Source: Orobanche coerulescens (Eukaryota; Streptophyta; Magnoliopsida; Lamiales; Orobanchaceae). From it: 64,000 nucleotides of DNA. The stretch lies in the NCBI GenBank assembly GCA_033398695.1, contig CM065804.1, positions 13,563,001 to 13,627,000 on the forward strand, given 5' to 3'. Shown one piece after another: positions 2,698-43,241 of the stretch. Position numbers and translations under genes: made by a program. Under the pieces are notes generated by a model. That model searched no databases, was not told the origin of the DNA, and worked only from the letters and a program-made list of their open reading frames with translations. Each line of letters opens with the position of its first letter. Position 1 is the first letter of the stretch.

Positions 2698-3009
2698 TGT
2701 AATACCCGAATTTTCAGTATAAATTTTTCGCGTTATTTTATCTGAGATATACTATATAGTTTGGTATCTATACAGTATGGATAAAATAAATTGAGAACCG
2801 AGACAGTTATACTGGTGTGATTATCGTTTTTGATTGACAGATATATTCAGGATATGTTGTATCAAGTTGAACTGATTTGGATATCAGGTATACCGTATGA
2901 GAATATTTTTGGATTCAGTATGTGTATTCAGTACGCCGTATGTTTGTATTTCGTACGTCGAGACGTCGGACAGGAATAGATGGATTTTTGGCTAAGTATA
3001 AAAGCCATT

Positions 3010-3546
3010 ACGTACGTTAAGCCCTTGGAGCTTACGTACGTAAAATATGTTAGCTTACGTACGTTATATAGTGTACATAACGTACGTAATAAGAGGAATC
3101 GGACAGTGGGGCCCATGGTCGGCAGCTTTTGGCGCGGATGTGGACAGGTGAGTCAACGTACGGAGTTACGTATGTTATACAGGGTGTATTACGTACGTAA
3201 TACGAGTATTATACTGTAGCAAGTCAACGTACGTATAACGTACGCAACGGAATAAGTGTTACGTATGTTACGGGGCCGCTGGCCGAGTCGTGGCCGAGAT
3301 GACCTGTAGTGGCCGAGCATGGTCGGCAGTGACTCGCATGGATGGCCGATCGCGGTCGGCAGTGACTCGCTGGGGGCTAGGACTGGCCGATAACGTACGT
3401 AAGGTACCGACCGGTTACGGCCGTAAGGGACCGTTACGTACGTAAGCCTCGGCCGGTTACGTACGTAACGATGCCGGCATTTCTGGGCAGAGACTTCGGC
3501 CATGGCCGGTTACGTACGTAAGGGCCCGGCCGGTTACGTACGTAAG
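3010..3546 (+). repeat. Array of TTACGTACGTAA palindromes in the U3 of element I
   Basis: The core ACGTACGT, or a one-base variant, starts near 3010, 3034, 3057, 3080, 3168, 3191, 3237, 3261, 3393, 3417, 3436, 3459, 3512 and 3536, with an off-phase copy at 3227. Most neighbouring copies are 23 or 24 bp apart, with larger gaps being loss of copies. The spacers differ in sequence, though GGCCGG often precedes a copy in the second half. The array ends about 20 bp upstream of the TATA-like box, so it forms the promoter-proximal U3. Confidence 0.9.
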
Positions 3547-6299
3547 CGTCCGTGATGTCCGCTATTTAAGGCCTGGACCGAGTCATATCCGGCATTTTCC
3601 ACTTTTCTTCGTTCCTTCCGCGATTTTTCACCATAGATCGATGGATTTGAGTAATATCATCATCTAACAACATGTTTTGGAAGTTGGAATCATGGATTAA
3701 CATCATCTTCCACCCGGATCGAAGGTAAGAACACCTAAACACTTGGTTTTGGATATTTTTGAAGTTTCTTGATGTCTTGGCCGATTTGATTCGTTTTAAC
3801 TCATATTATTGATGGAATCTTGTTGTATTCTTGAGATCATTCATTATTCTTGAAGTTTTGTGGAAAGAATTCAAGTATTTCTTTGAATAAACGATTGAAT
3901 TAGACTATGCCTTCAAAGTATTCGATGAAATGTCTCAATGAGTAGAACTTGGAAAATTCTACACGTTTTCGTATGAATGGTGATGGAAATGATATTGTTG
4001 TGATGATTCTTGGTATTTACAAGAATTTTGTTAAAGGAAGATAATGAATTGGTGATCAAATGATTCGATTATGTTGTTATGATTATGGAATCGTAGTATT
4101 CTCGATGTTCTTGGTGGTTTGTTGCGATTCATGATGTTATGAGAAGTGTATATGTTTAAGAACATGATTATATACACCTTGAATTATGATTAAGGGTTGT
4201 TTAGATGTTAGAAAACATCGGGTTATGTTGTTTTATGGATTATGAACGTGAATTTGGATAATTCGTGTTCTTAAAGAACTCTTGAGTTACATGTTATGAT
4301 TTTGGAAGGATTTCGGATAATTTTGGAATGTGATTATTCACGATAATAATCGGTAAATGGTTTTCTACGAATTTACAAGTATGAACAAGAAGGAGTTTTG
4401 TCTTCGTATTTGGAGTTGAAGTTGGAATCGAATATGTTATAAAATCCTTAATGTCGAGATGAATTGATCATTGATTTGATGAATACGTTTTAAGGTGTTG
4501 GTGTTTTATATATGAATATGGAATATTCATATCTAGAACTAAGTTATGTGTTTTGGTACAATATTCGTATAGGAATACGAATATGATTTCGGATTTGATA
4601 AGTTTATGATTCACTTTTGAGTTTGAGAATTCATAGGTATTTAACAAGTGTTCAATTCGGATAATGGAATTATTTGAAACCTTTGGAATATGGTTATTTA
4701 TGATGTTGAATTAATCGGATCGTCCGGATTGATAATGATAACCGGTAATTGGATTTTATTATGAATTTACAAGGAGGAAACTTGTATCCATATTTAAGAT
4801 TGAATTTGGAATCGGTAATGTTAGACCCTTGTTGGTTTAAATTGATTATGGATATGATATTCGGATTGTGGAATCTTATTGTGGTTTTGAATTCGTGATC
4901 GATTGATTTGGTTTTTCGGATTTGTGTTTAATCGGGATATTGTAGAACCGTTGTGCTTGTTGATCGGTTATTGATTGTTATTTGTGATCATCGAGTTACG
5001 ACTTGTATCGTGGATATGAGTTCGTATTTGTTTGAGTTGTATTGTTCGGTTTTGTTTATGATAGGGGTATTGTTGAGCCGTTGAGTCGCTTGGTTGGCTA
5101 TGTCGGTTATTGATTGTTATCGGATTGTTGTTAATTGATTATTGCAATAGGTTGTTATGGTTTGATCGTGGATTATGACCGTTATGTTGCGGTTGAGGTC
5201 AAAGAGTTCGTAAATTACTTTTGGTCGGGGCTGAGGAGCTCGTAGACAAAGGCAATGGATTTTGGTAACGGCTTCGTGGTATCGGTATCGAGGCAAGTTT
5301 ATACTTGTTCAGTTTATAATATTTGATGAATGGTTTCGTTTTCATTTCATTTATAATTCGTATAGCAATGTTGTTAGAAATGTAAGTTGTCGGGATAATG
5401 GTTTGTATATCGTGCCCTGGTTATAATAAATCATAAGGTATATGATTTAATTGTGTTCAAGGAAGACGTGATTTATTTTTGGTCAAGGATATACAATATC
5501 GGATATCGAGGATAGTTATCGTGATGACATAAGTATCGGGATAAAGGTTTTTGGTAATTAATGGATGGTACTTTATTTGAGATTATTTGTATAAATGTGT
5601 ATTCGTTCAGGGATGTGATTCATGGAAAGGATGTTGTCTTCGGCTTCGAGGTAATCTAAGTATTTGTTCAGTTATGTGGATAATTAGCATGTTGAGTTGT
5701 TGTGTATGTTGAGGTTTCGTGTAATGAGTTTCGTATCGGTTATTCGTTGAGGGATGTTGATCCCAGGACTATCGTATTGAGATCGTAGATCATGTTGGTC
5801 ATTCATTTGGGATGATGATCCCATGATTGATGTTTTGGATATTGATTAGTCGTGTCGACTTTTCATTGTCAGTCTGTTGTTGTTCACTTCGGTGAGTCTT
5901 TTGATCCTTATTGGATATGTAATTCTTGAGTTTCGTTGTCATGTTGCATCGTGACATATCTGGAGTCATATCTGCGTGCCGATTGGTTATTGTGTAGGAT
6001 TTTTAGCCGGGCACATGATGGTTATGCGTGGATATTTCCGCATTGAACCGTGCACACGAGACGTAGTTCGTGAGGCTAATTAGGTACAAGATCACACGTG
6101 TATTTGATCGATACCCGGGGTGGCTTGTGCACGGACACATTTCCGGATCGGGCGTACTGTGACGTCCATCTTTTGAGCCATATTGTTGGGTCGTTCATAG
6201 TCCATGTATGATTGGATATGTTCGACGGTTTGCGACTGGTTGTTCATACGCCCGAGGGGTATGTTCGATGATCGAGTTATTTCTTGAGATCCATTATTG

Positions 6300-6560: not shown

Positions 6561-7126
6561 TCAGTGATGTATTGGTTGATCATTGTTATTGATCGTATGA
6601 GCATTCCGACTGTACGTCGATGTTCGGGATTTGTTATCATTATCATATGGTAGTTGATCTACAGATATGTTGTGTATTATTGGTTTATCCAGGTTGAGAT
6701 TTGATTGTGTAATCCGACGAACATGATTTGACACAGATTGGATTACTCTGTACTTGTGAGTTATGATGATGTTTTGAGGATTGTTGGTATTTTTGAAATT
6801 CAATACAGATAATTGTTTTTAAGTTCATTTCGTCATTCGAGGATGCGAAATGTGGATTATGGTAAGGATTGGATTATTATGGATTGGTAAGGTTATAACG
6901 GTAAGATTACGTTGGTAGTATTCTTACAGTATTATTACATTGGTATGTAATTATTTATGATGATGTGATCGGTATCATTATTGAGTATTGTGGCTGACCC
7001 CGTCGTGGGCTTTATTTTTAGGTACTCGGAGATCGAGCTAGTAGCGGTCGTGAAGGGATGAGCTTCCCGATGTGATACTGGTTGTGGCTTGTTTTCGGAG
7101 AATTGAGTATTCTTTTCCGGTTATTT

Positions 7127-7292
7127 ATTTCCGCTGCAAATGTGTATTTTGAACTGCATTTATCCGCTGCGTGTGTGTATTTCAAAATGTCTTTTCGGTA
7201 TCTTTATCCACTGCGTGTGTATATTTCAAAATAGCTCTTTGGTATTTTTACCAACTCGTGTGTGTATTTTAAAATGGCCTTTTGGGCATTTT
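7127..7292 (+). repeat. Tandem repeat, unit about 44 bp, four copies
   Basis: Units begin with CCGCTGC, CCGCTGC, CCACTGC and CAACTCG near 7127, 7164, 7208 and 7252, followed by GTGTGTATTTCAAAATG-like sequence. The single-copy counterpart in element C is near 41590-41625 (on the minus strand). Confidence 0.8.
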
Positions 7293-7594
7293 ACGAACTT
7301 GGGTTATTTTCGTCAAACTCTTTTTCCCAAATTATTTTATTGGTACGTTTAAGCGGCGTCTTAACGTACATTTTGAACTGTTGAGATTTGGCACTTCGCC
7401 TTGTATTTTCAAATGGTATTTTATGACGGTATTTCAAAATTATGTTTTTGAAAATATTTGAGTATTTGCAAAATATTACCGTCATCAGCATTTTGGCGTT
7501 TTTGAATTGGTTTTGTAAACGGTTTTTAGCCTGGTGGGTTCTGGCGTGGGACCCACGGCGCTGTAATATCCCGGATGGTTTTTGGGGTGTTACA

Positions 7595-8039
7595 CCACCC
7601 AGGTCGGGTACTGGGCTTCCCGGATGAACCCGTTGTCGATCATATTTTCTACTTCCTCTTCCAGCCCCTTCTGTCGTTCAGGCCCCATTTTCCTCCTTTT
7701 CTGAATAACCGGCTTTGAACTGGGGTCGATATTCAGCCGGTGGCACGCAAGTTCCGGGTCAATCCTCGGCATGTCCGAATGGGTCCATGCGAAGACATCC
7801 AAATTCTGTCTTAGGTGGAAGATTAGCTCGGAGCGGATCGGCTCTTGGAGGTTGTGGCTGATCTTTAGCTGTCGGACGGGATCAGATGGGTCCATGTCGA
7901 CCTGGTCCAACACTTCTGTTGGCTCAGCATGGCGAATTTTCCCTTTCGGATTTTGGCATCGCGGGTCGACAGGATCTTCTTCCAGGATCGGCTCCTTTCC
8001 GGGCCTGCGGCCCCGGTCCGCGTCCTGGTCAGTTTCCAT
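7595..8039 (-). pseudogene. Gypsy protease-RT linker and RT N-terminus (element J)
   Basis: The minus strand encodes a linker, then DVFAWTHSDMPRIDPELACH and the block leading to GFIREAQYPTWV, the usual start of a Tat-type RT. It ends at the solo LTR I, and the rest of RT resumes at 2697. It overlaps the protease frame at 7865-8797 in another phase, so a frameshift lies between protease and RT. Reading it as RT N-terminus is secure from motif order. Confidence 0.88.
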
Positions 8040-9358: not shown

Positions 9359-10032
9359 CTAGCGGAAAAAAGAATTTTTGTGGAGGCCGGCCTGGGCGAT
9401 AATGGCCAGCGCGTCGTCCGACATGGGTTCCGTCTCCAATATCCATTTATTGAAACGAGATATATAATCTTTAAGGGACTCATTCGGCCCTGTATGACGA
9501 AAGCGATGGATGAGCGCGGGGCGACTCGCACTTGGGACCCCATGAAATGGGATTGGAACGTCGCCGAAAGCTGGGCCCACGTCTGAATAGAATGGTGGGG
9601 CAGCGTCCGATTCCATCTCTGGGCCCTCTCCCCCAGAGTCAAGGAGAACATTCGGCATCGAAACGCGTCCTGAGACCCGTGCAGGTCCATCCAGGAATTA
9701 TAATGTCCAAGATGGGCGTTGGGGTCTGTCTCCCCGTTGTATGGCGGGATCTGAGGAATCTTGAACTTTTCCGGGAGGGGTTCCGCCAGAACAGTGGGGG
9801 CCAGGGGACTCTCCTGGCTGTTAAGCCATTCCGAACTTTGGGATGGCTGGAGTTGCTTGTTTTCGAGCTCCGTAAGGCGTTTTTTAAGAAATTCGATCTC
9901 ACTCGAGTTATCGCCGGGAGTTGGAGGTAATACTTGTGTCGGATTTAGGGACTGGTGGGGAGCTTTTTCTTTTTTACGGCTCTGACTCTGGATAGTGGGA
10001 GCCGGCGCTGCTTTTTCGATTTTATTCCCCAC
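9359..10032 (-). pseudogene. Gag N-terminal and capsid-like part (element J)
   Basis: Starts MGNKIEKAAPAP, followed by a leucine/charged stretch (residues about 45-65) that may form a coiled coil. A retrotransposon-Gag domain comes next (PYNGETDPNAHLGHYNSWM, FSLTLGERAQRWNRTL). The frame breaks near 9640 and continues in a second phase to 9359 (ALIHRFRHTGPNESLKDYIS, FNKWILETEPMSD). Gag forms the cytoplasmic particle in active relatives. The break may be mutation or sequence error. Confidence 0.8.
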
Positions 10033-14055: not shown

Positions 14056-14369
14056 TGTAACACCCCGAGGTATTCGGAATAATTACAGCGCCATAAACCC
14101 TTTAAGTAAGGATTTACAAGGCTAATTTAAAAGAATTGTAAATATAATCCAATCGTACAACTGAAGTTCAAATACAGATTTGATTCAACCGATCAAATGA
14201 GTTAACTTATACAACCATATCGAAATAACATTATTAAAACAGACGTACTCGAGTACTAAATGACCCAAGAAGACAAATCACAATAACAATAAACATCAAC
14301 CACATCACTGAGCCATTTCATCCTCCTTTCGGTACTGTGGTTGCTTCCCCGCTCCTCGGCTACCTGAAC

Positions 14370-14425
14370 ATCAAAACAATGTCCACCCCCGAAGGGGTTA
14401 GCAAAACAATGCCAGTACAAGTATC
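14370..14425 (-). promoter_or_regulatory. Conserved GCTAACCCC hairpin block and CAGGTA
   Basis: In element orientation: ACTTGTACTGGC, then TTTTGCTAACCCCTTCGGGG, then TTTTGATGTTCAGGTA. The same order is seen in LTRs of B (19024-19105, 24596-24680) and F (61205-61290, minus). TTGTA words suit plant polyadenylation far-upstream elements, so this may be the 3' end-forming region; CTAAC plus CAGGTA also resembles a splice acceptor. The role is inferred. Confidence 0.5.
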
Positions 14426-14532
14426 ATAATACATAAGTCATCAGTGCATCATAAAACATGCAAAACGGACTTCCGTCACCGGAATCCAACGATGCGAATT
14501 CTCACGATTCCATCAACACAGTACAGGGTAAT

Positions 14533-14710
14533 CCAGCGATCCAGCGCCCTTGGTATAGAACCCCATGATGATCCCGTCGGACCAACGCATGGTGGAAAAC
14601 CCGTCCAGCGATCCAGCGCCCTCAGCATAGATCCCCATGATGATCCCGTCGGACCAACGCATGGTGGACATTCGATCTAGCGCCCTCAACATAGATCCTC
14701 ATGATCCCCT
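14533..14710 (-). repeat. 72-bp tandem repeat, two full copies and one partial, in LTR A
   Basis: CCAGCGATCCAGCGCCCT starts at 14533 and 14605, with a shortened copy near 14670. Each is followed by a GATGATCCCGTCGGACCAAC stretch. The other LTR has it at 30326-30500. Near-identical units occur in the LTRs of element C (42448-42610, 47660-47835), whose other LTR sequence differs. Confidence 0.9.
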
Positions 14711-15089
14711 CGAATCATTTATACCATAAATCAATCAATTATGCACACATATATGCATTTCAATATGTTCATCAATACGAATAATTAACAACGAATACCA
14801 CGAGAAATTACAAAAATACATCTCATATTCGACAATATGAACAAAACCATAAGCATGATCAAAGTTTCAATATAAATCGAACTCGACATATGATACTTGC
14901 CTCGAAAATGGCAAGAATGGAAATACTCAAACAAATGACACGCGTCCGTATGCCACCGCCCCTCGATCGTCCCCTATGCAAGGCTCGGACCTAAGAAATA
15001 ATAAAGAATTCCTCTCAAGTCGTACGAACATCTAATAATCCAGTTTACGACCGCAAGCTCAAAAAAAAATGAATTCTGCCTGAACTACT

Positions 15090-15302
15090 TAGCGTGCGCT
15101 ACGTACTATACGTAACGTGCTCTAAGCCTGCCCGTTAACGTACGCAAATGACCAGGTTTAGCATGCGCTAGCTGTTATGCACTTGACCTTCTACGAATGT
15201 ACGATCGCCTGCTTGATGATATAACGTAGGTTACGTATCCAACGTAGCGCACGTTACTCGTTCCCGATAGCGCACGTTATATATACATCTTAGCGTGCGC
15301 TA
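15090..15302 (-). repeat. 23-bp-phased palindrome array in the transcribed part of LTR A
   Basis: TAGCGTGCGCTA or decayed forms start at 15090, 15113, 15136 and 15159, then 15222, 15245, 15268 and 15291: steps of exactly 23 bp within each block, with unrelated spacers. The copies at 15113, 15136 and 15222 are degenerate yet keep the register. The other LTR has it at about 30889-31091. Confidence 0.9.
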
Positions 15303-16010
15303 ATCGTGCATGACAGTCACTACTGGGTAAAACTTGAGCTAAAGGTGATGAAAACTCATGAAATCCTCAGTGTTAATACATGCCAACTCCGTGTATATCA
15401 TGCTCATATGGTTTATGAAAGACCTTTATGGATTAAATGACTACGAGACACAAGGATACGTATCATCATTACTACACCATAATTCATCTTGATCTTCAAG
15501 AAAATATTCTAAGTTCCGTTTATTCCAAGTCCCAAAACATATGATTCCTTACGTAAAACATACGAACTAGGTAATCTTCATATACTGGTCATGATTGGTT
15601 TTGAAGATACATAATATGCTTAGGAGTCCACATACTAAAAAGGTTCAATGGATCATACGATGAATAAGTGCCGAAACGTCGAAAATAGCCTTCTAAAACA
15701 TGATGTTCGACTATTAACGAATCTGACTGACTAGATAAACATGATCGAAGGTCCTTTAGAACACTACTAATATTGGTGAAGAATCACCTACCTCAAAGTA
15801 GTGAAGAACAAGGAGGAAATCGAAGCAATCCAACGTCGAATGCTTGAACACCAATCCTCAATGATCTATAATCTTCAACACGAGCTAGGATGCTGATATG
15901 AAGTGTTTAGGATGTAGAGAGTAATACTCTAAGTATAAGGATTCGGATGTGGGAAGAGAAAAGACTGAAAATACGAAAAAGATGCTGTCCTATTTATAGA
16001 AAATGGTTAT

Positions 16011-16305
16011 TAGCGCGCGCTAGTCCATACTCTTAGCGTGCGCTAACGGCTTACTGACTTCATTGTACTCAGCACTTAGCGTGCGCTATTCTCATATCAG
16101 TAGCGTGCGCTAAGGCGTTGACTTGGCTTTTCCCGAAAGCCGTCCAGGTTCATCCCGACACAATCCGACCAAGATCCCCGGCCTGATCTCAGCTACCACA
16201 CGTCTCAATCATATTGACCACGTATAGCGTGCGCTAATGTTTCTTTGTAGCGTGCGCTATGGATCCATGTTAGCGTACGCTACACATAGACGATAGCGTG
16301 CGCTA
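16011..16305 (-). repeat. 23-bp-phased palindrome array in U3 of LTR A
   Basis: Starts at 16011 and 16034; 16077 and 16101; 16225, 16248, 16271 and 16294. Steps are 23, 24, then 23, 23, 23 bp. The words are TAGCGTGCGCTA, TAGCGCGCGCTA and TAGCGTACGCTA. On the minus strand the array sits just upstream of the TATA box near 15995, so it is promoter-proximal. The right LTR has the same array at about 31800-32098. Confidence 0.93.
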
Positions 16306-16456
16306 CATGCGCAGAATCACAATCTTAAATCACATTCATGAAATCATACACTCAACAACACCGGACTATGAGATACGGAGAATAATACTCAGATTAAAGT
16401 GCAACAATTACAATATGACAAGTTCCAAATACATATCATAAATCTCGGGTATTACA

Positions 16457-16528
16457 TCCTTCCTCCCTAAAAAGAAGTTTCGTCCCGAAACTTAAGATGA
16501 AAACAACTCTGGATATCTAGCCTTCATA
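16457..16528 (-). pseudogene. C-terminal coding stub, hairpin and polypurine tract of A
   Basis: On the minus strand the first about 30 bases after B's insertion site hold the last codons of the A polyprotein (ARYPELFSS then TAA), typical of a chromodomain-like tail. A perfect inverted repeat AAGTTTCG-tcc-CGAAACTT follows at 16475-16493, then a purine run (minus strand) before the LTR. The larger part of the gene is at 25034 onward. Confidence 0.7.
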
Positions 16529-19457
16529 TGTAATACCCACGATTTTCGTTCCGGTTATTTTAGATTTTTTTTTCCGGATATTTCCCGGTTGTCGAGTTCC
16601 GGTATTATTTTCTCGACAACTGATTTTGGCATTTAAGACCGTAGGTGATGATTTGTTATCCGTTGTTTTCATTTCGGACCGATGATGTTGTCCCCGAGTA
16701 TTTTGTCGTGTTCGTTCCGTGCGATTTCGGAAAATCGAGTCGTCGAATCATGGTGGTCGGACACTGGCCGGACGGTTGGGGACGGTGGTCGGACGGCTGC
16801 AGGCATTGGCCGGACGGGTGCAGGCACCGGCCGGGCGGGTGCGGCAGGAACCGGCGTAGCGCACGCTATGGCCGGGAGGTAGCGCACGCTACGGTCGGGA
16901 GGCAGCGCACGCTACGACCGGTTGGCTGCGCGCGCTAGTCGGCCGAGGCAGTAAGGGCAGAAAGGTTCTGGACTGGGAGGATCGGCAGGTAGCGCACGCC
17001 ATCTTGTCGGACAACTGCAAGACGCTACGGCGGCAGTAGCGCACGCTACACTCTGAAGGCTGCGCACGCTACTGGCCGAGCCGAAGTCTGGAATGTGGTG
17101 GGCCGACAGCGCACGTGCTCAGCGCATGATGGCGGGCCCGGCCGAACATTCTCGACCATGACCGCCCGCTAGCGCACGCTAGCTCGGCAGTCTAGCGCAC
17201 GCTAGGCTGCACCAGTATAAATATTACCGAGCAGTCCTGTTTGCACTTATTTTTCATTTTCTCCCTTTCTCTTCCGCGGATGGGTCATTGGAGATCATGA
17301 AGGCATGTTATTATACAACTAATCCACGAAGTTTTGGAGCTTATATCATCGATTAATCACTCCATAACATCCTTCAATCCAGCGAATCAAGGTTAGTTTT
17401 CTTAAAATCCTAGTTTTGGAAAAATTGGGGATTTTGTTGATTTCGTCCGTTTGATTCGTTATATCTTAGAATAGTGATGGATTGATGATTATTAAGTTGT
17501 TTTATACCAATTTCCTTGTTGATCCATGGTTCGATTGTTAAAGATTCTTCGTTTTGTTGAGTTCCTAATCGGTGCCTTGAAGGTGTCCGGTGAAAATCCT
17601 TAGAGGGGGGTTTTGGGCGTTCTACGATTATTCTTCCTCGTAAGATCGTTGATTTTGACGGTATTATGTTAGGGTCAGGTTCCTTGCGAAGAACTTGAGT
17701 CGGAACCCTTCCGTTCGCCGTTTCCCGATCGGTTATGTTACCGTCGTTTCCGCCGGAGGGTTGTGGGCATTCGAGGTTTCCTGGTTGAGCCATGTTCGTC
17801 GGAGTGTCCGGTATCAAATATCGAGGCAAGTATCTTGCCCATACATTACGTGTTTTGTGAATATGATGGTCGAAAGTTGACGATACGTGCTAAACGAATT
17901 GTTTACAACCATTTTTCTAAAGAATCGGTATATTTACAATTATGGTTTTCTTAAAGGATGAATCTTGTGTTCGAGACTTAATGTGATTATTTGACTATGT
18001 GTGTTAGTGTTGAGTATAGAAACTCCCTACCTTCGGATGATGTCATTATGTGTGAATATGTCGTCGGTAATTGGTGGTTAAATCCTTTTGTTATGAATTG
18101 TGCGTGGAATAATGTGGTTATCGGTAGATACATGAGTTGTGTGATACGGGTTGTGTCGTTCGGTGTTGTTGAGATAAATGTGTTTCTTTGTGGATAGTAT
18201 TAATCCTGGGTCGTGAGTATATGTTAGAATAATATGGCCATTTTAGCAAAATACCTCGACTATATATATTGTGATTGACTCTTGAGGATTGTGGTTTTGG
18301 AAATGTGAATTGATGAGAGTTGAAAGGTTTTTCTCGGGTACTCTCACTCGGGGATTGACTCGACGGGGTCACACGGGGACCTGGTGGCTTAGCGGCTGGA
18401 CCGGGTCGCGAGAGTTACTTCGAGTGGGCATTCTCACCTGGGGATTGCTCGACGGGGCACACAGGGACTTGGTGGCCTTACGGCGGGACCGGAGGGCTGG
18501 ACCGGGTCGCGAGAATTGCCAGAGTGTTGGTACTGTTGATTAATTGTGATATGTCCGGAGTATCACAATGCTTGTTGCTCGGAGTCGAGAGACATTATAT
18601 ATCGAGTCTTGGTGTTTGGCTAAAATGGCATAAAAATAATGTGTTGTGTGTAACGTGTCGTTGGAAGTGAATTGAAGTGAATGAACGGGTCGTGGACCCT
18701 GTATTGATGATCGAAATGGTTGGGTCGTGGACCCTGTGTTTTGTGACTGGAACGAGTTGGGTTGTGAACCCCGTGTTTTGTTAATCGGATTTACATTTTT
18801 GGAAAATGAATATTGGGGCGGTGACCCTAAGTGGCTTTTGAAGAATTAAGAACTTTACTATCGCAAATGTTTTCGAAAACTCCCGAGATTTGAAAATGTT
18901 TTCAAAGTGCTTTCTTGTTTTGGTTTCTACTTTCAAGACTTGAACTATTTTAATTATCAAATAGCTCGGGAAGTCTTTTGTTGTATTCTCGGAATGTGTT
19001 TTGTATGGCTCGTATGTGCACTTTATACTTGTACTAGCAAAACAGTGGAGTTTTGCTAACCCCCGAGTATTCGGGGGTGGATGTCTGTTTTTGCATCCAG
19101 GTACATGCAGGTTTGGGAGCAAAACACAGGATCGGCGCGAAGGATGATGGAAGGCGAATGATACTAATCACACGAAGGCCAGTGTTGGATACGATCGATC
19201 GAGTTTGTGTGTGGTCTTTCTTCTGTCGTACTTTTGGTTTGTGAGTGTATTTTACCCTTGTACGGGTATGAGTCGAGATGGAAATGTGTATTTTTGTCTT
19301 GTATGTTAGTGACGAAAGACCAAGTTGGTCTACGGATTTTGTATTTTATCGTGTCGGTATGTAATTTATTGTGTAGTTTTGATGTCTAGCCTGGTGGATC
19401 CTCACGGAGAGGGTCTGCGGCGTGTAATATTCCCGGTTTGATTCTGGGGGTGTTACA
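16529..19457 (+). mobile_element. 5' LTR of element B
   Basis: 2929 bp. U3 with palindrome array 16857-17204; TATAAATA at 17216-17223; a two-copy repeat of about 90 bp at 18336-18520 (CTCACTCGGGGATTG, CTGGACCGGGTCGCGAG); the GCTAACCCC hairpin block near 19055. Ends GTGTTACA just before the primer site. No credible protein; short open frames are not conserved in the other LTR. Confidence 0.94.
16857..17204 (+). repeat. 23-bp-phased palindrome array in U3 of B
   Basis: TAGCGCACGCTA or decayed forms start at 16857, 16880, 16903 and 16926; 16990; 17037 and 17060; 17170 and 17193. Runs keep exact 23-bp steps, also through the decayed CAGCGCACGCTA and CTGCGCGCGCTA copies. The TATA box begins 12 bp after the last copy. 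Confidence 0.92.
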
Positions 19458-20199
19458 TTTATGGTATCAGAGATTAGGTTGCGGAAACCTAGGCTGTCGG
19501 GTCCAGTCGGGTATTGTCGTGTCTTGTTCTGTCAGATTGTGTCTGCCTAAGTCGTGTCGCGACGCGTCGTATGTGATGTCGGCCGTGATTAGTATCGAGG
19601 TGCAGCCATCATCTTCGTGCGACCTGTGGATGTAAGTCTCCCTACTATATTGTGCCTTGTGATATACGAGCTTGTATGATTTTTTGTTATGATGTGGAGT
19701 TAAAGGTGATTTGTGAGTATGTGGCCTATGTTGTTTCATTTTCGTATGATGACCTCAAGGTCAAAATTTTTAGAGAAATCCAACTACCGATATTTTATTT
19801 TCATTTGATATTATAAGTTTTCAAAACACGATTTTTGAACCCAAGTGAACTTTACAAAACGTAGACAAGACGTGACTCTCGTTTTCAACTTATCGGTTTT
19901 ATGGCTGTTAGTCGAGAAATACGTGATGATGTTCTTGTTGTTCGGGCAGTGATGCCGGTTTTAGATTAAAATAGTGATGTGAATACTAAGTCGTTCGGTA
20001 TGAGTTAAGATAGCTCTCTTTATTAATAGACGGGATTTCGATCCTGGATGACAGTTGTCCTTTGATGGTTGCTCGCGAAGTGTTGTAAGCATGTGAATCG
20101 AAAGGCATTTAGATTCGTATGCTGTCGTTGTTCATTTGTAACTATCGGTTCTAATAATGTCGTATATATATTCGCAATCACGTGCTGAATTTGAGCTGT

Positions 20200-20325
20200 T
20201 AGCGCACGCTAAGTACAAGGCTAGCGCGCGCTAATGTGGCATGAGTTGCGCACGCTAATGTTGTTGTAACGCGCGCTAATGCAGCATGAATAGCGCACGC
20301 TAAATAATTGTTGTAGCGTACGTTA
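20200..20325 (+). repeat. Palindrome array inside the internal region of B
   Basis: TAGCGCACGCTA-like words start near 20200, 20222, 20246, 20267, 20291 and 20314. Steps are 21 to 24 bp, a looser version of the LTR arrays. Confidence 0.85.
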
Positions 20326-22100: not shown

Positions 22101-22137
22101 AAGTTTCGGGACGAAACTTATTTTTAGGGGGGTAGAA
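22101..22137 (+). promoter_or_regulatory. Hairpin and polypurine tract of B
   Basis: AAGTTTCG-gga-CGAAACTT (22101-22119) with an 8-bp perfect stem, followed by the purine run AGGGGGG, TAGAA and the LTR start at 22138. This is where plus-strand priming is expected. Confidence 0.8.
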
Positions 22138-25028
22138 TGTAATACCCACGATTTTCGTTCCGGTTATTTTGGATTTTTTTTTCCGGATATTTCCCAGTTG
22201 TCGAGTTCCGGTATTATTTTCTCGACAACTGATTTTGGCGTTTAAGACCGTAGGTGATGATTTGTTATCCGTTGTTTTCATTTCGGACCGATGATGTTGT
22301 CCCCGAGTATTTTGTCGTGTTCGTTCCGTGCGATTTCGGAAAATCGAGTCGTCGAATCATGGTGGTCGGACACTAGCCGGACGGTTGGGGACGGTGGCCG
22401 GACGGCTGCAGGCATTGGCCGGACGGGTGCAGGCACCGGCCGGGCGGGTGCGGCAGGAACCGGCATAGCGCACGCTATGGCCGGGAGGTAGCGCACGCTA
22501 CGGCCGGGAGCGGCCTGCCTTCGACCGGTTGGCTGCGCGCTAGTCGGCCGAGGCGTAAGGGCGAAAGGTTACGGGTGGGAGGATCGGCAGGTAGCGCACG
22601 CTACTGTCGGACACTGCGCACGCTACGGCCGGCAGGTAGCGCACGCTACGGCCTGAAGGCTGCGCACGCTACCTGGCCGAGCCAGGAAGTCTCTGGAATG
22701 TGGCTGGGCCGACAGCGCACGTGCTCAGCGCATGATGGCGGGCCCGGCCGAACATTCTCGACCATGACCGCCCACTAGGCTGCACCAGTATAAATATTAC
22801 CGAGCAGTCCTGTTTGCACTCATTTTTCATTTTCTCCCTTTCTCTTCCGCGGCTGGGTCATTGGAGATCATGAAGGCATGTTATTATACAACTAATCCAC
22901 GAAGTTTTGGAGCTTATATCATCGATTAATCACTCCATAACATCCTTCAATCCAGCGAATCAAGGTTAGTTTTCTTAAAATCCTAGTTTTGGAAAAATTG
23001 GGGATTTTGTTGATTTCGTCCGTTTGATTCGTTATATCTTAGAATAGTGAGGGATTGATGATTATTAAGTTGTTTTATACCAATTTCCTTGTTGATCCAT
23101 GGTTCGATTGTTAAAGATTCTTCGTTTTGTTGAGTTCCTAATCGGTGCCTTGAAGGTGTCCGGTGAAAATCCTTAGAGGGGGGTTTTGGGCGTTCTACGA
23201 TTATTCTTCCTCGTAAGATCGTTGATTTTGATGGTATTATGTTAGGGTCAGGTTCCTTGCGAAGAACTTGAGTCGGAACCCTTCCGTTCGCCGTTTCCCG
23301 ATCGGTTATGTTACCGTCGTTTCCGCCGGAGGGTTGTGGGCATTCGAGGTTTCCTGGTTGAGCCATGTTCGTCGGAGTGTCCGGTATCGACTATCGAGGC
23401 AAGTATCTTGCCCATACATTACGTGTTTTGTGAATATGATGGTCGAAAGTTGACGATACGTGCTAAACGAATTGTTTACAACCATTTTTCTAAAGAATCG
23501 GTATATTTACAATTATGGTTTTCTTAAAGGATGAATCTTGTGTTCGAGACTTAATGTGATTATTTGACTATGTGTGTTAGTGTTGAGTATAGGAACTCCC
23601 TACCTTCGGATGATGTCATTATGTGTGAATATGTCGTCGGTAATTGGTGGTTAAATCCTTTTGTTATGAATTGTGCGTGGAATCATGTGGTTATCGGTAG
23701 ATACATGAGTTGTGTGATACGGGTTGTGTCGTTCGGTGTTGTTGAGATAAATGTGTTTCTTTGTGGATAGTATTAATCCTGGGTCGTGAGTATATGTTAG
23801 AATAATATGGCCATTTTAGCAAAATACCTCGACTATATATATTGTGATTGACTCTTGAGGATTGTGGTTTTGGAAATGTGAATTGATGAGAGTTGAAAGG
23901 TTTTTCTCGGGTACTCTCACTCGGGGATTGACTCGACGGGGTCACATGGGGACCTGGTGGCTTAGCGGCTGGACCGGGTCGCGAGAGTTACTTCGAGTGG
24001 GCATTCTCACCTGGGGATTGCTCGGCCAGGGCACACGGGGACTTGGTGGCCTTACGGCGGGACCGGAGGCTGGGCCGGTCGCGAGAATTGCAGTGTTGGT
24101 CTTGTTGATTAATTGTGATATGTCTGGAGTATCACAATGCTTGTTGCTCGGAGTCGAGAGACATTATATATCGAGTCTTGGTGTTTGGCTAAAATGGCAT
24201 AAAAATAATGTGTTGTGTGTAACGTGTCGTTGGAAGTGAATTGAAGTGAATGAACGGGTCGTGGAACATGAATTGATGATCGAAATGGTTGGGTCGTGGA
24301 CACTGTGTTTTGTGACTGGAACGAGTTGGGTTGTGAACCCCGTGTTTTGTTAATCGGATTTACATTTTTGGAAAATGAATATTGGGGCGGTGACCCTAAG
24401 TGGCTTTTGAAGAATTAAGAACTTTACTATCGCAAATGTTTTCGAAAACTCCCGAGATTTGAAAATGTTTTCAAAGTGCTTTCTTGTTTTGGTTTCTACT
24501 TTCAAGACTTGAACTATTTTAATTATCAAATAGCTCGGGAAGTCTTTTGTTGTATTCTCAGAATGTGTTTTGTATGGCTCGTATGTGCACTTTATACTTG
24601 TACTAGCAAAACAGTGGAGTTTTGCTAACCCCCGAGTATTCGGGGGGTGGATGTCTGTTTTTGCATCCAGGTACATGCAGGTTTGGGAGCAAAACACAGG
24701 ATCGGCGCGAAGGATGATGGAAGGCGAATGATACTAATCACACGAAGGCTAGTGTTGGATACAGTCAGTCCGAGTTTGTGTGTGGTCTTTCTTCTGTCGT
24801 ACTTTTGGTTTGTGAGTGTATTTTACCGTTGTACGGGTATGAGTCGAGATGGAAATGTGTATTTTTGTCTTGTATGTTAGTGACGAAAGACCAAGTTGGT
24901 CTACGGATTTTGTATTTTATCGTGTCGGTATGTAATTTATTGTGTAGTTTTGATGTCTAGCCTAGTGGATCCTCACGGAGAGGGTCTGCGGCGTGTAATA
25001 TTCCCGGTTTGATTCTGGGGGTGTTACA
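22138..25028 (+). mobile_element. 3' LTR of element B
   Basis: 2891 bp, nearly identical to 16529-19457 by eye, TATAAATA at 22789-22796. It lacks the two array copies that lie at 17170-17204 in the 5' LTR and has another decayed copy. It carries many small differences at CAG/CTG words. Confidence 0.94.
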
Positions 25029-25033
25029 TCATA

Positions 25034-25558
25034 CTCCTCTGTTTCCCAAGTGGCCTCTTCAGCTCCATGTCGTGACCATTGTACTTTAACCAAGTGTATT
25101 AGTTTATTCCTCAATTGTTTGATCCGACTCTCAAGTATCTTGATTGGTCTCTCTTCGAATGTGCCATCATTAGCTATCTCGATCTCGTCGAAATCAATGA
25201 CGTGACTGGGGTCCGGTACATACTTCCGCAATTGGGATACGTGAAACACATTGTAAACGTGACTCAGTGATGGTGGTAAAGCCAACCTGTATGCTAAATC
25301 CCCAACTCTTTCTAGGACCTCAAATGGCCCGATATATCTCGGACTTAGCTTACCTCTCCTCCCAAAACGGAAAATCCCTCGTGTAGGAGACACCTTCAAT
25401 AGTACATGGTCCCCGACGTCGAACTCTAGAGGGCGACGACGTACGTCTGCATAAGACTTCTGTCGACTCTGGGCAGTCAACAGTCTTTCCCGAATCAAAG
25501 CTATCTTCTCTTGAGTCTGAACTATCAATTCTGGTTCTGTCCCGATCAAGTCCGAAGA
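25034..25558 (-). pseudogene. Integrase C-terminal and chromodomain-like part (element A)
   Basis: The minus strand encodes the end of integrase with a GPY/F-type module (RYIGPFEVLERVGDLAYRL, then LSHVYNVFHVSQLRKY) and then an HGAEEATWETEE segment, the start of a chromodomain-like tail. Such tails steer integration to heterochromatin in chromoviruses (family knowledge). Element B cuts the tail at 25033; the final codons are at 16490-16523. An upstream TAG (Trp to stop after SPLC) separates it from the integrase core. Confidence 0.88.
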
Positions 25559-25564
25559 ATCATC

Positions 25565-26446
25565 CTAGCACAGGGGTGATCGAAATCTTCTCCCGTACAA
25601 AGCTTCAAATGGTGCCATCTTAATAGAAGCATGCCAACTATTATTGTAGGTGAATTCAATCAATGGCAAATGAACTTCCCAATCAGTAGACCAATCCAAA
25701 GCACAAGCTCTAAGCATGTATTCTACTGTTTGTATAGCCCTTTCGGACTGACCGTCCATTTGGGGATGATAAGCCGTGCTAAAGTTGAGCTCAGTCCCCA
25801 AAGACCTGTGAACTGCCTTCCACAAGTGCGACACGAAGCGACCATCTCGATCCGAAATAATGGTCTTCGGCGTCCCATGCAATCTGACTATCTACGCAAT
25901 AAATACTCGCGCTAATCTCTTGGGTCCCCATGTATCTTTAATTCCTAGGAAATGAGCCGACTTGGTTAGTCGATCAACTATAACCCAAATCATGTTCATT
26001 CCCGTTCTAGTCCTTGGCATACTGGTGATGAAATCCATCGAGATATCCTCCCACTTCCACTCAGGGATCGGAAGCGGCTTTAACATTCCGACAGGTCGCT
26101 GATGTTCAATCTTAACCTGCTGACAAGTCAAACACTTCGAAACGTACTCTGCTACGTCCTTCTTCATATTCCCCCACCAGAAGTTTTGTTTAAGATCTTT
26201 ATACATTTTACTGCTTCCCGGGTGAATAGAATAGGGCGCGCTGTGGGCTTCCTTCAGAATTGTCCGTCTCAAATCATCATCATCGGGAACGCAAAATCGA
26301 CTCTGAAATCTCAGAACTCCATCATCTTGTATCACGAATCCTGGGGCCTTTCCTTTCTTTACTTCGTCACATAACCGAAGGATCAGAGAATCGTTCAACT
26401 GCTTAGATTTGATCTCCTCGACTAGTGATGAAGTTAGTTCCATCAC
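25565..26446 (-). pseudogene. Integrase zinc-binding and catalytic core (element A)
   Basis: Order on the minus strand: HHCC zinc-binding domain (EAHSAPYSIHPG..CLTCQQ), first catalytic Asp in VIVDRLTKSAHF, second in IISDRDGRF and Glu in DGQSERAIQ, so the DDE triad is present. A stop codon lies at about 25892 (before IVRLHG), between the first and second catalytic residues. Integrase would join the cDNA to chromosomal DNA in the nucleus. It follows RT-RNase H, as in all Gypsy elements. Confidence 0.92.
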
Positions 26447-28190
26447 ATATAGTTGCCCTTGGATTCCTGGTGCCCATACTTCAATCCCTTCGCGGATCAG
26501 TTCCCGCTAAACGCTGGTTTGGGATGTAAGCGCTTCCAACACTCGAAGGGAAACAGGTTTACGGCTCAAAGCATCGGCTACTACGTTTGCTTTCCCCGGA
26601 TGATAGAGAATCTCCAAGTCGTAATCCTTGATCAATTCCAGCCACCTTCTCTGCCTCATGTTTAATTCTTTCTAACTGAAAATGTACTTGAGGCTCTTAT
26701 GATCTGTAAAGATCTGGCAACGAGTGCCGTACAAATAATGTCGCCAAATTTTCAAGGCAAAGACCACAGCTGCTAGCTCCAGATCATGAGTCGGGTAATT
26801 AACCTCATACGGTTTCAATTGCCGAGAAGCATAGGCAATCACCTTATCCTTTTGCATCAACACACATCCCAGACCCTGATTTGTAGCGTCGCTGTATACC
26901 ATGAATCCATCAGTTCCATCTGGTAATGCTAATATAGGTGCTGTTGTCAGTCTCTTCTTAAGTTCATCAAAATCAGTCTGGCATTTCTCATCCCACGTAA
27001 ACTTTTGAGTTTTCTGCAACAGCTGAGTGAGTGGACGAGCAATTTTGGAAAATCCCTCTACAAAGCGGCGATAATATCCAGCAAGTCCTAGGAAACTCCG
27101 GACTTCTTTCACGTTACTAGGAACTTCCCATTCCAAGATTGCTTCGACTTTATTCGGGTCCACCTGAACTCCATCAGCTGATATCACATGCCCAAGGAAA
27201 GTTACTTCCCTAAGCCAGAACTCGCATTTGGAAAGCTTTACATACAGCTGTTCCTTCCTCAAGGTGCTTAAAACCACACGCAAATGTTCGGCATACTCCT
27301 CTGCGTCCTTCGAATATATCAAGATGTCATCAATGAATACGACCACAAATTTATCCAAGTATTCTAAGAATACCCGATTCATCAATTGCATGAATACCGC
27401 AGGAGAATTGGTAAGTCCAAATGGTATCACTACAAATTCATAATGCCGTCTGGGACACGAAGCGGAGACTTGGTACATCCGATTCCTTAATTCTCAACTG
27501 ATGGTATCCTGATCGCAAGTCAATCTTCGAGAATACCCTTGCCCCTTGCAGTTGATCAAACAAGTCGTCGATCCGAGGTATAGGATACTTATTCTTGATC
27601 GTCATCTTGTTGAGCTCCCTATAATCAATACACAGTCGGAGGGATCCGTCTTTCTTCCGGACAAAGAGAATGGGCGCTCCCTAAGGAGAAACGCTGGGTT
27701 GAATATAACCCTTCTGTGACAATTCCTCCAGTTGCTTCTTGAGTTCATACATCTCGGTTGGCGCCATGCGGTATGGTGCTCTGGAAATAGGAGTGGCTCC
27801 AGGCTCTAATTCGATAGTGAATTCCACCTCTCTCTGCGGAGGTAACCCAGGTAGTTCGTCAGGAAATACGTCGGAGAATTCATTCACAACTGGAATCGAT
27901 GAGAGCTCTATTCCTTTCTCTTTCCTCATGGCATAACACCAAAGTCCATGACATCCCTGCTTCAGTAATTTCACGGCTTTCATTGCTTTGATCAATTTTC
28001 CCGAGCATCCCGGTCTCCATCCTCGGAATAAGTGTTCAGATCCGTCATCAGCAATGATAGAAATAACTCTCTTTCGGTAATTTAGAATAGCTCCATAACG
28101 GTTGAGCCAATCGTCTCCAAGAATTAAATCGTCACCGTAGATGTCAACTACAATAAGATTCGATAGCCAATCTCTCCCTCCTATAGACAC
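26447..28190 (-). pseudogene. Reverse transcriptase and RNase H (element A)
   Basis: The minus strand runs: post-protease linker (FSDVFPDELPGLPP), RT start (YELKKQLEELSQKGYIQPSV), a stop at about 27680 where SPWGAP would be expected, a second segment with [14 protein letters not shown] (FIDD motif near 27324-27337), then RNase H ([25 protein letters not shown]). Another TAG closes the frame at about 26672 and is followed by a further readable stretch to integrase. The RT would copy genomic RNA in the particle. The frame change near 27480 is real or a consensus error. Confidence 0.92.
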
Positions 28191-28205
28191 TGGAAAATCC
28201 CTAGC

Positions 28206-29611
28206 TTATAGGGTTCCCACAATTTTCTCTCCGCTCGGTAAACCCACAACATAAGGTTCACAATTATAAAAGCACGAGATTTTCAAACGATTAACACAGT
28301 TCAAAGATATAAAAGAATGCGTAGCTCCCGAATCAAACAAGACACTAACTGGTTGCAAAAGGATCTGAATCGTACCTGATGCAACAGCTGTGTTTTGATC
28401 ATCCTTCTTCATCTCGTAAATACGCGGAGGAACGGACCCAGCGCTGGATGCCTCTCTCTTCTGCTGCGGGAAACCGCTCTGCTGCGTCTGGTTTACACTA
28501 GTGTCCTTCAGAACCGGTACAGGAGTGCGAGTGCCAAAAGATCTAGTCGCATTCCCACAAAATGTTGCGCGATGTCCTTCCTGTCCACACTCGAAACAGG
28601 TCACAGCAGGCGCGAAACAGTCACGTCGAATATGCCCCGCTTTGCCACAGTTATAACATTTCTTCCCTGCGTCTGAAACGGTTGGTGCTACCCGGAACTT
28701 CTTTCCTCCTCGAGAAGGATGCGGAGGCCTCCTGGATGAATGGAAAGAGGATTGGCCCCTGCGAGGCCCACTACTCTTATTCTCCGTGAAGTTGCCGGCC
28801 ACTCTCTGCTTCTTTGCTTCCGTCGATTTCTCTACTACTGCCTCCTTCATATCATAGGCCAACGCCTTGTCCTGATACTGTCGCAAAGTGGTACATTCAA
28901 ATCCGGACATATATTGCTGAATTTCCGACTTCATTCGCATGTCAAAATGGAAAATCCTCTCCGCCTCGGTCCTGACCAAGTGGCGCACGTAAGTCAGCTG
29001 GTGATTAAAAGTCTTAATCACGTCCGTCACAGATGCTTCTGAATTTTGTGGTGAGAAAAACTCCCGAACTCGGGCCTCTCTAATCGGGCGAGGACAATCT
29101 GCGCTTCCATCATTAATTTGAATTCCGTCCAGTCAACATTATGCTCCTCCGGTCGAATGGCCTCCCACCGGTCGAAAGCCTCCCTGTCGGAAGATCTGGG
29201 CGGCCGGAACCTTTACATCGTTGGGACGCTTAATCCCATAAAAATCTTTTCTAATTCCTTCAGCCAGTGATCCCAAGAAAGCGTCTCAGCAGAACCGTCA
29301 AATTTCGGAGGATGCAATTTGATCACCTCAGTAAGCCATTTATCTCCTCGATTATCCACGTTATGCTGTTGTCCCATCGCCGTCTGCATGCGATCCACAA
29401 CTTGAGCAAACTGGTTTATCTGGGCAACCACCTGTTGAAGCACTCCCGGCACGTTAGGATCTGCATTATTATTTGCTGATCCCTGTTGTCCCCCGAAATG
29501 GGAATCCGTTCGGCTAGCAGTTATTTCGGGGGTAGACACCGAATCTTCTTGTCTCGCGTTTCCACATCCGCGTCCACGACCGTGTCCGCGTCCACGACCT
29601 CCTCTCAACAT
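28206..29611 (-). pseudogene. Gag and retropepsin (element A)
   Basis: The likely start is the Met at 29611 opening an Arg/Gly-rich stretch (MLRGGRGRGHGRGRG). A Gag capsid-like region follows and breaks near 29213; the frame resumes at 29030. Two zinc knuckles, CYNCGKAGHIRRDC and CFECGQEGHRATFC (about 28575-28665), bind RNA. The protease active site LFDSGATHSFIS (about 28330) has an intact DSG. A TAA ends the frame near 28206, and the protease continues in another segment (GDDLILGDDWL). Two knuckles and ATHSFIS point to a chromovirus (family knowledge). Confidence 0.92.
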
Positions 29612-29835
29612 ACTGTAAACACAAATACTTAATATCCAGGGCAAACTTTCTAAAAGTACATCCATCAATGTTAACGATCATGAATTAAATAAAACGGTAG
29701 TATTTGAGATTTAGGAAACTTACAACCACGGTCCACACGACGATGCTGGCTCAGCAATGATGTTACGAACGACCAATAATCAAATAACGTAAACAGACCC
29801 AACTAACCCGACTGCCAAGATATCCATGAATCTTA

Positions 29836-29847
29836 GCTCTGATACCA
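29836..29847 (-). promoter_or_regulatory. Primer binding site of A
   Basis: On the minus strand TGGTATCAGAGC lies 5 bases inside the 5' LTR (29853-32245). It complements the 3' end of a Met-type tRNA, the usual primer of plant Gypsy elements. Confidence 0.85.
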
Positions 29848-29852
29848 TATTC

Positions 29853-32245: not shown

Positions 32246-32250
32246 CTCCT

Positions 32251-42447: not shown

Positions 42448-42610
42448 CCAACGATCCAGCGCCCTCAGCATAGATCCCCATGATGATCCCGTCGAACCAA
42501 CGCATGGTGGAAAACCTGTCCAACGATCCAGCGCCCTCAGCATAGATCCCCATGATGATCCCGTCGAACCAACGCATGGTGGACATCCGATCCAGCGCCC
42601 TCAGCATAGA
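42448..42610 (-). repeat. 72-bp tandem repeat in LTR C
   Basis: Two to three units starting CCAACGATCCAGCGCCCT, near-identical to the repeat in LTR A. The other LTR has it at 47660-47835. Confidence 0.88.
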
Positions 42611-43241
42611 TTCTCATAATCCCATCGGATTAATTACACAACATGAACAACACAATACGCATACACATATGCAATTTAACATGTTCATCAACATGAACAA
42701 CATAACATGCACGACAACATGACAATTTACTAGGACGATTCCATGTTCAACAACATGAAAGAAAATGTACGAGACCAAAATAAATAACACTAAGCCATAA
42801 TCAATATAGAATACCTGCCCCGAGTCCTTCGGGAGCAACCTCGATGTCCAATCATCACCGAAGATTATCCGCAACGCTCGACGATCCAAACGTATCATGA
42901 ACCATAAATATTCGAATCCTCGTCTTTATCACAATGTAACCTCGATACTCGAACATACCAATAACTCGATACCGATACGACGATGATGAGGTCGTTACCA
43001 ATTCCATTTTCATCATCTACAAGTTCCTCGGTCCCGACCAAAGCAATTCACGAACATCCTCGAACACGACCGCAGCATACGGTTATAGACACCGGTCAAT
43101 AAACTTGACCTTTTTGAAGAAATGAATTGATTTCCAAGGTTGAATCCATTTACAAGAATCACCAATGATTTCAAGCTACAAATGTTGTTATGGATGATTA
43201 ACTCCATCTTAATCCAGTGTTTGGAACCTCAAATATATCCC

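Follow-up and report, generated by a model that had tools for sequence, protein, structure and literature searches.

Paired arrays of a 12-bp palindrome in register with the TATA box in Gypsy-type LTR retrotransposons

Introduction

Nested LTR retrotransposons make up much of the 64-kb window, the whole stretch of DNA analysed here, and the U3 regions of these elements carry arrays of a 12-bp palindromic word. The word recurs at a step of 23-24 bp, the sites are grouped in pairs and quartets, and the last of them stands in register with the TATA box. The sites favour one orientation with respect to the element, change together from one word to another, and are kept at homologous positions where the spacers between them have been lost. 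The feature is real and is spread throughout the 3.65-Gb host genome, which its elements mark as that of a plant, and it probably has a function.

The explanation that we favour, with somewhat better than even confidence, is that the arrays are sites for a putative dimeric, cooperative and probably methylation-sensitive protein that drives transcription of the LTR. The U3s of one Gypsy lineage of chromovirus type would carry arrays bound by this sequence-specific protein, which would bind the 12-bp palindrome as a dimer; two dimers 23-24 bp apart would form the working unit, a quartet being two such pairs. With its last pair one step before TATA, the bound array could reach TBP and the initiation complex and activate the LTR. 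Methylation of the LTR would abolish binding, and new or demethylated copies would regain it. As the specificity of the protein drifted, the words of each family would follow (from TAGCGYRCGCTA to TTACGTACGTAA), and the spacers would be free to vary. We infer the protein, its dimeric state, its cooperativity, its activating effect and its sensitivity to methylation.

An initial annotation of the window had proposed either sites for a protein acting on one DNA face or a target for small RNAs. An array of protein sites beside the TATA box is still the best-supported reading, but the single face and the small RNAs are not borne out. A 12-mer present in about a million copies and set in TATA-registered pairs is a strong lead to the transcriptional control of an abundant retrotransposon lineage, and the pair of words is a cheap bait for isolating the putative protein.

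Retrotransposons of the window

Element B, on the plus strand, sits nested within element A, on the minus strand (Table 1). Target duplications of 5 bp are present in A (CTCCT), B and C, whose LTRs start with TGTAATA and end with TGTTACA, one copy of C ending in TTACG. A has a PBS with TATGGTATCAGAGC, and the Pfam domains RVT_1, RT_RNaseH_2, Integrase_H2C2 and SH3_Tf2-1 were found in pieces of one Gypsy polyprotein. The E value was 3.4e-28 for SH3_Tf2-1 and 0.0012 for Chromo, the latter at 19.1 bits against a Pfam cut-off of 25.1. These features fit a Gypsy element of chromovirus type, perhaps a Tekay-like one. Among the best 120 matches listed for its RT the top identity was 74%, and the named matches were from Tanacetum, Hibiscus, Solanum, Mikania, Helianthus, Striga and others. 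The interiors of B and C are 2.4-2.7 kb long, no ORF listed for them exceeds 141 aa, and both elements look non-autonomous. Adjoining the fragment J, a repeat starts (51971-53360 and 59433-60828) that forms LTRs around Copia-type ORFs.

The ratio of observed to expected CpG is 1.08 across this retrotransposon-rich window and 1.33-1.74 in the array-bearing U3s; for DNA that is expected to be methylated, the loss of CpG in the window is low.

Table 1. Elements, arrays and TATA boxes, with the loci of a second palindrome
Feature	Position	Strand	Basis or remark
LTR of A, 3' in sense	14056-16460	-	self-BLAST 96.1% vs 29853-32250; U3 ~15999-16460
Other LTR of A, arrays as in first	29853-32250	-	arrays at 30880-31091, 31800-32094
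Internal region of A	25030-29852	-	zinc knuckle, protease, RT, RNase H, integrase H2C2, SH3_Tf2-1, sub-threshold chromodomain
A distal quartet	16225-16305	-	steps 23, 23, 23
A middle pair, adjoins AAGTCAAC (W-box TTGACT)	16077-16112	-	step 24
A proximal pair	16011-16045	-	step 23
A TATA box TATAAATA	15991-15998	-	24 bp past start of final word
A, two quartets of variant words in transcribed LTR part	15090-15302	-	~690-900 bp past TATA
LTR of B	16528-19458	+	96.2% vs 22137-25029; TSD TCATA
B quartet, spacers alike (tandem-unit-like)	16857-16937	+	spacer comparison
B proximal pair, missing in other LTR	17170-17204	+	step 23
B TATA box	17216-17223	+	23 bp past start of final word
B internal region, six sites, alternating spacers	20200-20325	+	far from any promoter seen
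B second-LTR quartet	22592-22671	+	word scan
LTR of C	41324-44120	-	95.8% vs 46556-49329; TSD AGAAT
C distal quartet	43783-43863	-	position homologous to I 3008-3089
C pair	43658-43693	-	step 24
C mixed quartet, grades TAGCGCACGCTA to TTACGTACGTAA	43471-43551	-	word scan
C proximal quartet	43355-43431	-	steps 23, 18, 24
C TATA box	43336-43343	-	23 bp past start of final word
C, other-LTR copies of arrays	48563-49070	-	word scan
F arrays, 13 sites	62269-62673	-	word scan
F TATA box TATATAAA	62249-62256	-	24 bp past start of final word
I arrays, word TTACGTACGTAA	3008-3545	+	word scan
I TATA-like box TATTTAAG	3563-3570	+	29 bp past start of final word
J, fragment of I-like LTR with TTACGTACGTAA sites	51837-51965	+	self-BLAST, word scan
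GWGCCGCGGCWC pairs	L028:363-637, L017:2434-2637, L020:5543-5709, 9654-9863, L030:4202-4525, L014, L037		word scan

The palindromic word and its abundance

The general word TWRCGYRCGYWA has 82 exact sites in the 64 kb, where simulated sequence predicts 0.05, and 113 sites at up to one mismatch against 3.7 in simulated sequence. A two-strand scan at up to two mismatches returned 144 matches, whereas 100 shuffles averaged 1.78 and never exceeded 7, which places the recurrence beyond chance. Across the genome the exact word TAGCGTGCGCTA was counted 507,111 + 510,633 = 1,017,744 times, and its reversed-letter control 33 + 23 = 56 times. A blind sample of 28 stretches (240 kb), chosen by round coordinates before inspection, held 225 sites against 6-19 in ten simulations, with at least four sites in 16 of the 28; a rough extrapolation gives about three million sites in the genome. 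Information is confined to the 12 bp: around 169 distinct asymmetric sites, none of the 11 flanking positions to either side carries more than 0.16 bit; farther out, neighbouring words start to appear in the profile.

Words were confirmed where they had originally been placed, at 15090-15302, 16011-16045, 16225-16305, 16857-16937, 43783-43863 and 62486-62565. All eight sites at 15090-15302 fit TWRCGYRCGYWA at 11-12 of 12 letters, although six of them are one to four letters away from TAGCGTGCGCTA. For element I the word had been misread: it is a different one, TTACGTACGTAA, with starts at 3008, 3032, 3055 and 3078, and the positions given earlier (3034, 3057, 3080) lie two bases inside it. Further sites include those at 16077/16101, 17170-17204, 20200-20325, 43471-43551, 43658-43693 and 51837-51965, and in the second LTR copies.

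Most forms of the word contain two or three CpGs, so that binding would probably be methylation-sensitive; methylation is known to block the binding of other plant factors. Between the two LTRs of one element, CpGs changed faster than other positions in all three cases (26/278 vs 46/2113 in A, 16/385 vs 28/2493 in B and 15/287 vs 42/2468 in C), as expected of methylated DNA. Several observations weigh against the proposed activator, among them the solitary sites, the departures from the TATA register, the similar spacers of B, J and F_2 and the cases of unprotected words described below. About one million exact sites would titrate an ordinary transcription factor unless they were mostly masked, a difficulty that methylation-blocked binding would also solve. 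In addition, the arrays at 15090-15302 and 20200-20325 fall outside promoters.

Spacing and pairing of the sites

An unbiased count of the distances between repeated 6-mers gave 23 as the commonest value in the U3 of A, the R/U5 of A, and the U3s of B and C; 23 tied with 24 in I, and 45 led in F and in the internal array of B. The step had been described as 23 bp almost without exception. Among 54 window steps from 24 hand-drawn arrays (taking a single LTR copy of each element but the two of B) it is indeed 23 in 35, but 24 in 10 and 18-22 in 9, hence our wording of 23-24 bp. The 23-bp peak persists beyond the window: in the blind sample 132 neighbours lay at most 35 bp apart, 87 of them at 23 and 22 at 24, the remainder being spread over 22 (9), 21 (8), 18 (4), 19 (1) and 25 (1). 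Exact copies of TAGCGTGCGCTA-N11-TAGCGTGCGCTA, which counts a spacing of 23, number 131,744 genome-wide against none for the control, with many different spacers among the 100 matches listed.

Sites mostly come in even numbers, as pairs and quartets. Clusters in the blind sample held two (30), three (4), four (36) or five (2) sites, 66 of the 72 being even, as were 22 of the 24 hand-drawn clusters of the window; 29 of the 225 sample sites stood alone, where about 12 would be expected by chance. Within the sample quartets the outer steps were 23 in 56 and 24 in 6 of 72, and the middle step was 23 in 20, 24 in 8 and 18-19 in 5 of 36. The outer steps are thus steadier than the middle one, which makes the pair the more regular unit and the quartet two pairs. 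The two-fold symmetry of the word suggests a dimer, and the fixed step together with the even counts suggests contacts between dimers. The idea of a protein acting on one DNA face proved inexact, since a 23-bp step makes 2.19 turns of a helix of 10.5 bp per turn and each site is therefore rotated by about 70 degrees from the last.

Paired palindromes could also act through their structure, as hairpins of DNA or RNA that aid the element or draw small RNAs as in maize Sireviruses. The pairs and quartets are foldable, 8 of 12 folded strands were unmatched by any shuffle, and one LTR of B has lost one complete pair; small RNAs accumulate on Sirevirus palindromes (PMC10760457, PMC5311732). Even so, we consider this account decidedly unlikely. 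Self-pairing of the sense-strand word UAGCGCACGCUA leaves a mismatch at its centre, and sense RNA folds worse than antisense in 11 of 11 arrays, which argues against a selected sense-RNA hairpin. Complementarity between first and third spacers was not significant (0.445 vs 0.421, p 0.105), and hairpins could form without one word being common to U3s that do not align and without a loop fixed at 11. Two-fold sites read by a protein remain our preferred explanation.

Position and polarity relative to the TATA box

Measured between the first base of the last word and that of the TATA box, the distance is 24 bp in A (both LTRs), 23 in B, 23 in C (both LTRs), 24 in F and 29 in I, and the sequence between word and box differs among A, B, C and F. 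The arrays adjoining the box are at 43355-43431 in C and 62269-62303 in F; those originally listed for these two elements lie farther upstream. Genome-wide, TAGCGCACGCTA-N11-TATAAA occurs 15,196 times and TAGCGCACGCTA-N{13,40}-TATAAA 68,092 times. The second pattern fixes one word 25-52 bp before TATAAA and thus excludes the direct 23-24 cases, and many of the matches listed for it read word, 11 or 12 bp, word, 11 or 12 bp, TATA. In 50 strings taken from these listed matches, the last word stood 22-25 bp before TATA in 36 and the other 14 did not fit; 39 of the 50 had their last word at most 30 bp from TATA, with 35 different spacers. This register suggests an action on initiation, and with its last pair one step before TATA the array would be able to contact TBP.

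The second LTR of B has no proximal pair, which puts the last word of that copy at a distance of 129 bp from TATA. When 22770-22797 is set against 17165-17223 the whole proximal pair is absent, with CTAG at the junction and the TATA box kept.

In element sense, the words of the window have a CA centre in 43 cases, TG in 3, a symmetric centre in 31 and another in 1. Orientation within clusters agreed by 68 to 24 in the blind sample. Upstream of TATAAA the CA form was found 83,288 times (N11 + N13-40) and the TG form 27,285 times (N11-40).

W-boxes, TTGAC[CT], occur in the U3s of A (2, p 0.047), C (3, p 0.007) and I (2, p 0.073). None is present in the U3s of B and F, and the W-box was rejected as a lineage-wide U3 feature.

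Conservation of words and divergence of spacers

Once the words of the five U3s are masked, C and I alone still give an extended alignment (75% over 153 bp), and no other alignment is longer than 28 nt. One word common to otherwise dissimilar U3s, and changing jointly within an LTR, points to a reader acting in trans. The distal quartets of C and I both start 7 nt past a shared anchor, GGCTAAGTATA; all four words differ between them, C having mostly TAGCGCACGCTA and I having TTACGTACGTTA/AA, and the three spacers share only 0-2 of 11 letters. The anchored quartet recurs in four further sample loci, giving six homologous quartets with those of C and I. Mean identity among the six comes to 0.80 in the upstream sequence (gapped alignment, counting aligned columns alone), 0.78 in the words and 0.30 in the spacers (ungapped), the last being the level of unrelated spacers (0.301); within one word class the words reach 0.83-0.96. 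At homologous sites words are either kept or switched jointly to TTACGTACGTAA, and locus L021 and the mixed array of C are intermediates in that switch.

Five comparisons of related loci gave the following differences in words, spacers and flanks, with p for spacers against flanks: A and L032, 4/96, 19/56 and 24/318 (p 6.5e-7); L020 and L029, 13/138, 34/85 and 83/556 (p 5e-7); I and L029, 11/166, 36/95 and 130/578 (p 0.0019); C and L027, 12/156, 36/95 and 131/489 (p 0.035); C and L025, 6/120, 14/74 and 42/194 (p 0.74). Spacers outpaced flanks in four of the five. Words changed less than flanks in all five, significantly in three, the slowing being non-significant between A and L032 (p 0.35) and between L020 and L029 (p 0.1). 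The effect is not uniform: L020, L029 and I have a scrambled distal quartet, whereas the spacers of their middle pairs are largely kept. In 35 of 81 comparison rows, excluding overlapping loci (L003-L006, L008), LTR pairs of one element, second copies and repeated comparisons, mean identity was 0.884 for words, 0.755 for flanks and 0.676 for spacers; the sign tests on these rows are non-independent, and word identity is partly inflated because the sites were found by word matching. Between the two LTRs of A, of B and of C the words were not protected after insertion, which is expected of neutral copies and says nothing about function.

The arrays might have no function at all and be a tandem repeat of 23 or 46 bp that slippage multiplied before it decayed. 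Spacers had been called unrelated in sequence, and this was upheld for A at p 0.78 and for its transcribed arrays at p 0.23. A slight excess of similarity came out at p 0.019 for C, 0.034 for F, 0.048 for the internal array of B and 0.066 for I, and the spacers looked like tandem units in B (p < 0.0005) and J (p 0.0015) and in F_2, where the first spacer equals the third. Mean identity in quartets was 0.394 between first and third spacers and 0.359 between adjacent ones, against 0.301 by chance. Alignment of spacers as ordinary tandem units is thus mostly not seen, with B, J and F_2 as exceptions, and the similar spacers of these three indicate that some arrays grew by plain duplication of units. 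The alternating spacers at 20200-20325 are of the same tenor. Tandem duplication is part of the origin of the arrays and does not explain their maintenance: decay should strike word and spacer equally, and homologous sites keep their words and lose their spacers. Absence of function, which we give very little credence, would also leave the TATA register and the concerted change of words unexplained.

It is also conceivable that the spacers vary by selection. About half the length of a 24-nt siRNA always falls in spacer, so that fast spacers would shield the promoter word from silencing across families. The excess of spacer change over flanks in four of five comparisons agrees with this. Between A and L032, 24-mers shared at up to two mismatches number 7/107 in arrays and 179/249 in flanks; between L020 and L029 the difference at up to four mismatches is smaller (50/127 and 342/595). 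In the other three comparisons, however, arrays share 24-mers about as often as flanks or more often, and the spacers of C and L025 evolve no faster than their flanks. As a general account siRNA escape was rejected, being clear in one comparison of five and partial in a second, and we think it improbable. The original suggestion that the word is a target for small RNAs of 23-24 nt is likewise unsupported, because 12 nt is too short and the spacers vary.

Comparison with known systems

Repeated factor sites in the U3 drive the LTRs of Tnt1 and Tto1 in tobacco (LTR activator boxes) and of ONSEN (heat-shock elements). The U3 sites described here are repeated in the same manner, whereas those systems are Copia and use other motifs; we know of no lineage-wide word and step in them.

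The closest precedent is formed by the palindromic RMs of Sireviruses, which are Copia elements, and the arrays reported here would be a Gypsy variant of it. As described in PMC2829016, RMs are palindromes of 10-20 bp with element-specific words. Each element has between 8 and 32 of them, most in the first half of its LTR and close to the TATA box on the upstream side; they bound CpG islands, and some elements have further copies inside. The copies start 200-400 bp into the LTR, in its upper half (PMC2829016), and here too a palindrome is repeated upstream of TATA, with first words at LTR offsets of 155 (early) in A, 329 in B, 257 in C and 309 in I. In contrast to the RMs, which Bousios et al. 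2010 termed Sirevirus-specific (PMC2829016), carrier A has a Gypsy rather than a Ty1/copia domain set, and TWRCGYRCGYWA is without the CGG-CCG signature. RMs are not known to have the fixed step of 23-24 bp, the pairing or the TATA register. More generally, cis-regulatory regions of elements are often arrays of repeats, sometimes palindromic, and maize Sirevirus palindromes have been linked to small RNAs (PMC10760457, PMC5311732). The initial annotation knew of no description of such arrays; this stands for the exact word in a full-text search, but not for the kind of feature, given the RMs upstream of TATA (PMC2829016). Forms of the word matched papers unrelated by title, and for palindromic arrays in Gypsy or chromovirus LTRs none of the titles listed suggested a description, in a literature search covering mainly papers outside subscription journals.

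The arrays could instead be anti-silencing targets, at which an element-encoded or captured factor removes methylation as VANC does for VANDAL; they would have spread because non-autonomous relatives such as B and C require them as well. VANDAL elements are MULE DNA transposons. Their VANC motifs are co-evolving motif arrays (PMC5735166, PMC10398659), and our arrays resemble those of VANC21 and VANC6 in the dense repetition of one short motif, mainly in one orientation, and in its joint change between families (Hosaka et al. 2017, PMC5735166). B and C do retain sites, some arrays lie outside promoters, and extra proteins have been reported in other plant Gypsy elements, namely TRP28 of Retand (PMC11963269) and sunflower Tekay (PMC12844716). 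The VANC motif differs in being 9 bp long, in tandem-repeat arrays and read by an element-encoded protein (PMC5735166); the tandem-repeat trait is seen here in B, J and F_2, is slight in C, F and I, and is absent in A. The stems 'palindrom' and 'spacing' do not appear in the main text of that paper (PMC5735166). Among the listed ORFs on the coding strand of A, part of which were domain-scanned, gag-pol pieces alone were recognised, and the TATA register points to transcription itself, so that we judge an anti-silencing role unlikely and retain the transcriptional activator as our preferred reading.

Two other candidates were rejected. The insertion preference for palindromes treated in PMC6911290 concerns single target sites, not arrays. 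In viral contigs one pair pattern had a single match (L001), by eye a stem-loop in GC-rich DNA with no array, and unrelated; two other pair patterns had none in viral contigs, nor did the one pattern tried in prokaryote genomes.

Other repeated palindromes

A search for other repeated palindromes revealed GWGCCGCGGCWC, with 82 sites in 304 kb and none in the window. Its steps of at most 24 bp are 21 in 34 of 44 cases, the pairs being joined at 23-24, 44 or 49-53, and exact pairs at 21 bp occur at 39,567 places genome-wide. The carrier was typed at locus L028, where LTRs at 1-850 and 6957-7802 accompany integrase H2C2, SH3_Tf2-1 and a sub-threshold chromodomain. With A and L028 as carriers, at least two elements of chromovirus type have palindromes paired at a step that is specific to the word. 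A TATA register was not seen for GWGCCGCGGCWC: among 11 arrays a TATA-like sequence lay at 42 in one, at 28 in two (both of L028) and was absent in eight.

We suggest, as a tentative extension for which the chances are well below even, that a modular promoter code is common to the chromoviruses of this genome, in which each lineage would combine a palindrome with a fixed step (TWRCGYRCGYWA with 23-24 and GWGCCGCGGCWC with 21), multimeric readers co-evolving with it, a TATA register and fast spacers. If true, it would amount to a form of addressing between millions of sites and a trans-acting factor, beyond ordinary promoter boxes. The joint switch of words in sister families, together with a second word of another step, provides a natural experiment on the co-evolution of elements with a host or element factor, and on why silenced copies fail to titrate factors.

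Two further forms were noted. A variant with a GGCC centre, TTACGGCCGTAA, is repeated at 21 bp in L017 and L024 and also occurs in the window at 3415-3426, and the palindrome TCGGATATCCGR is repeated at 44 and 51 bp in L015.
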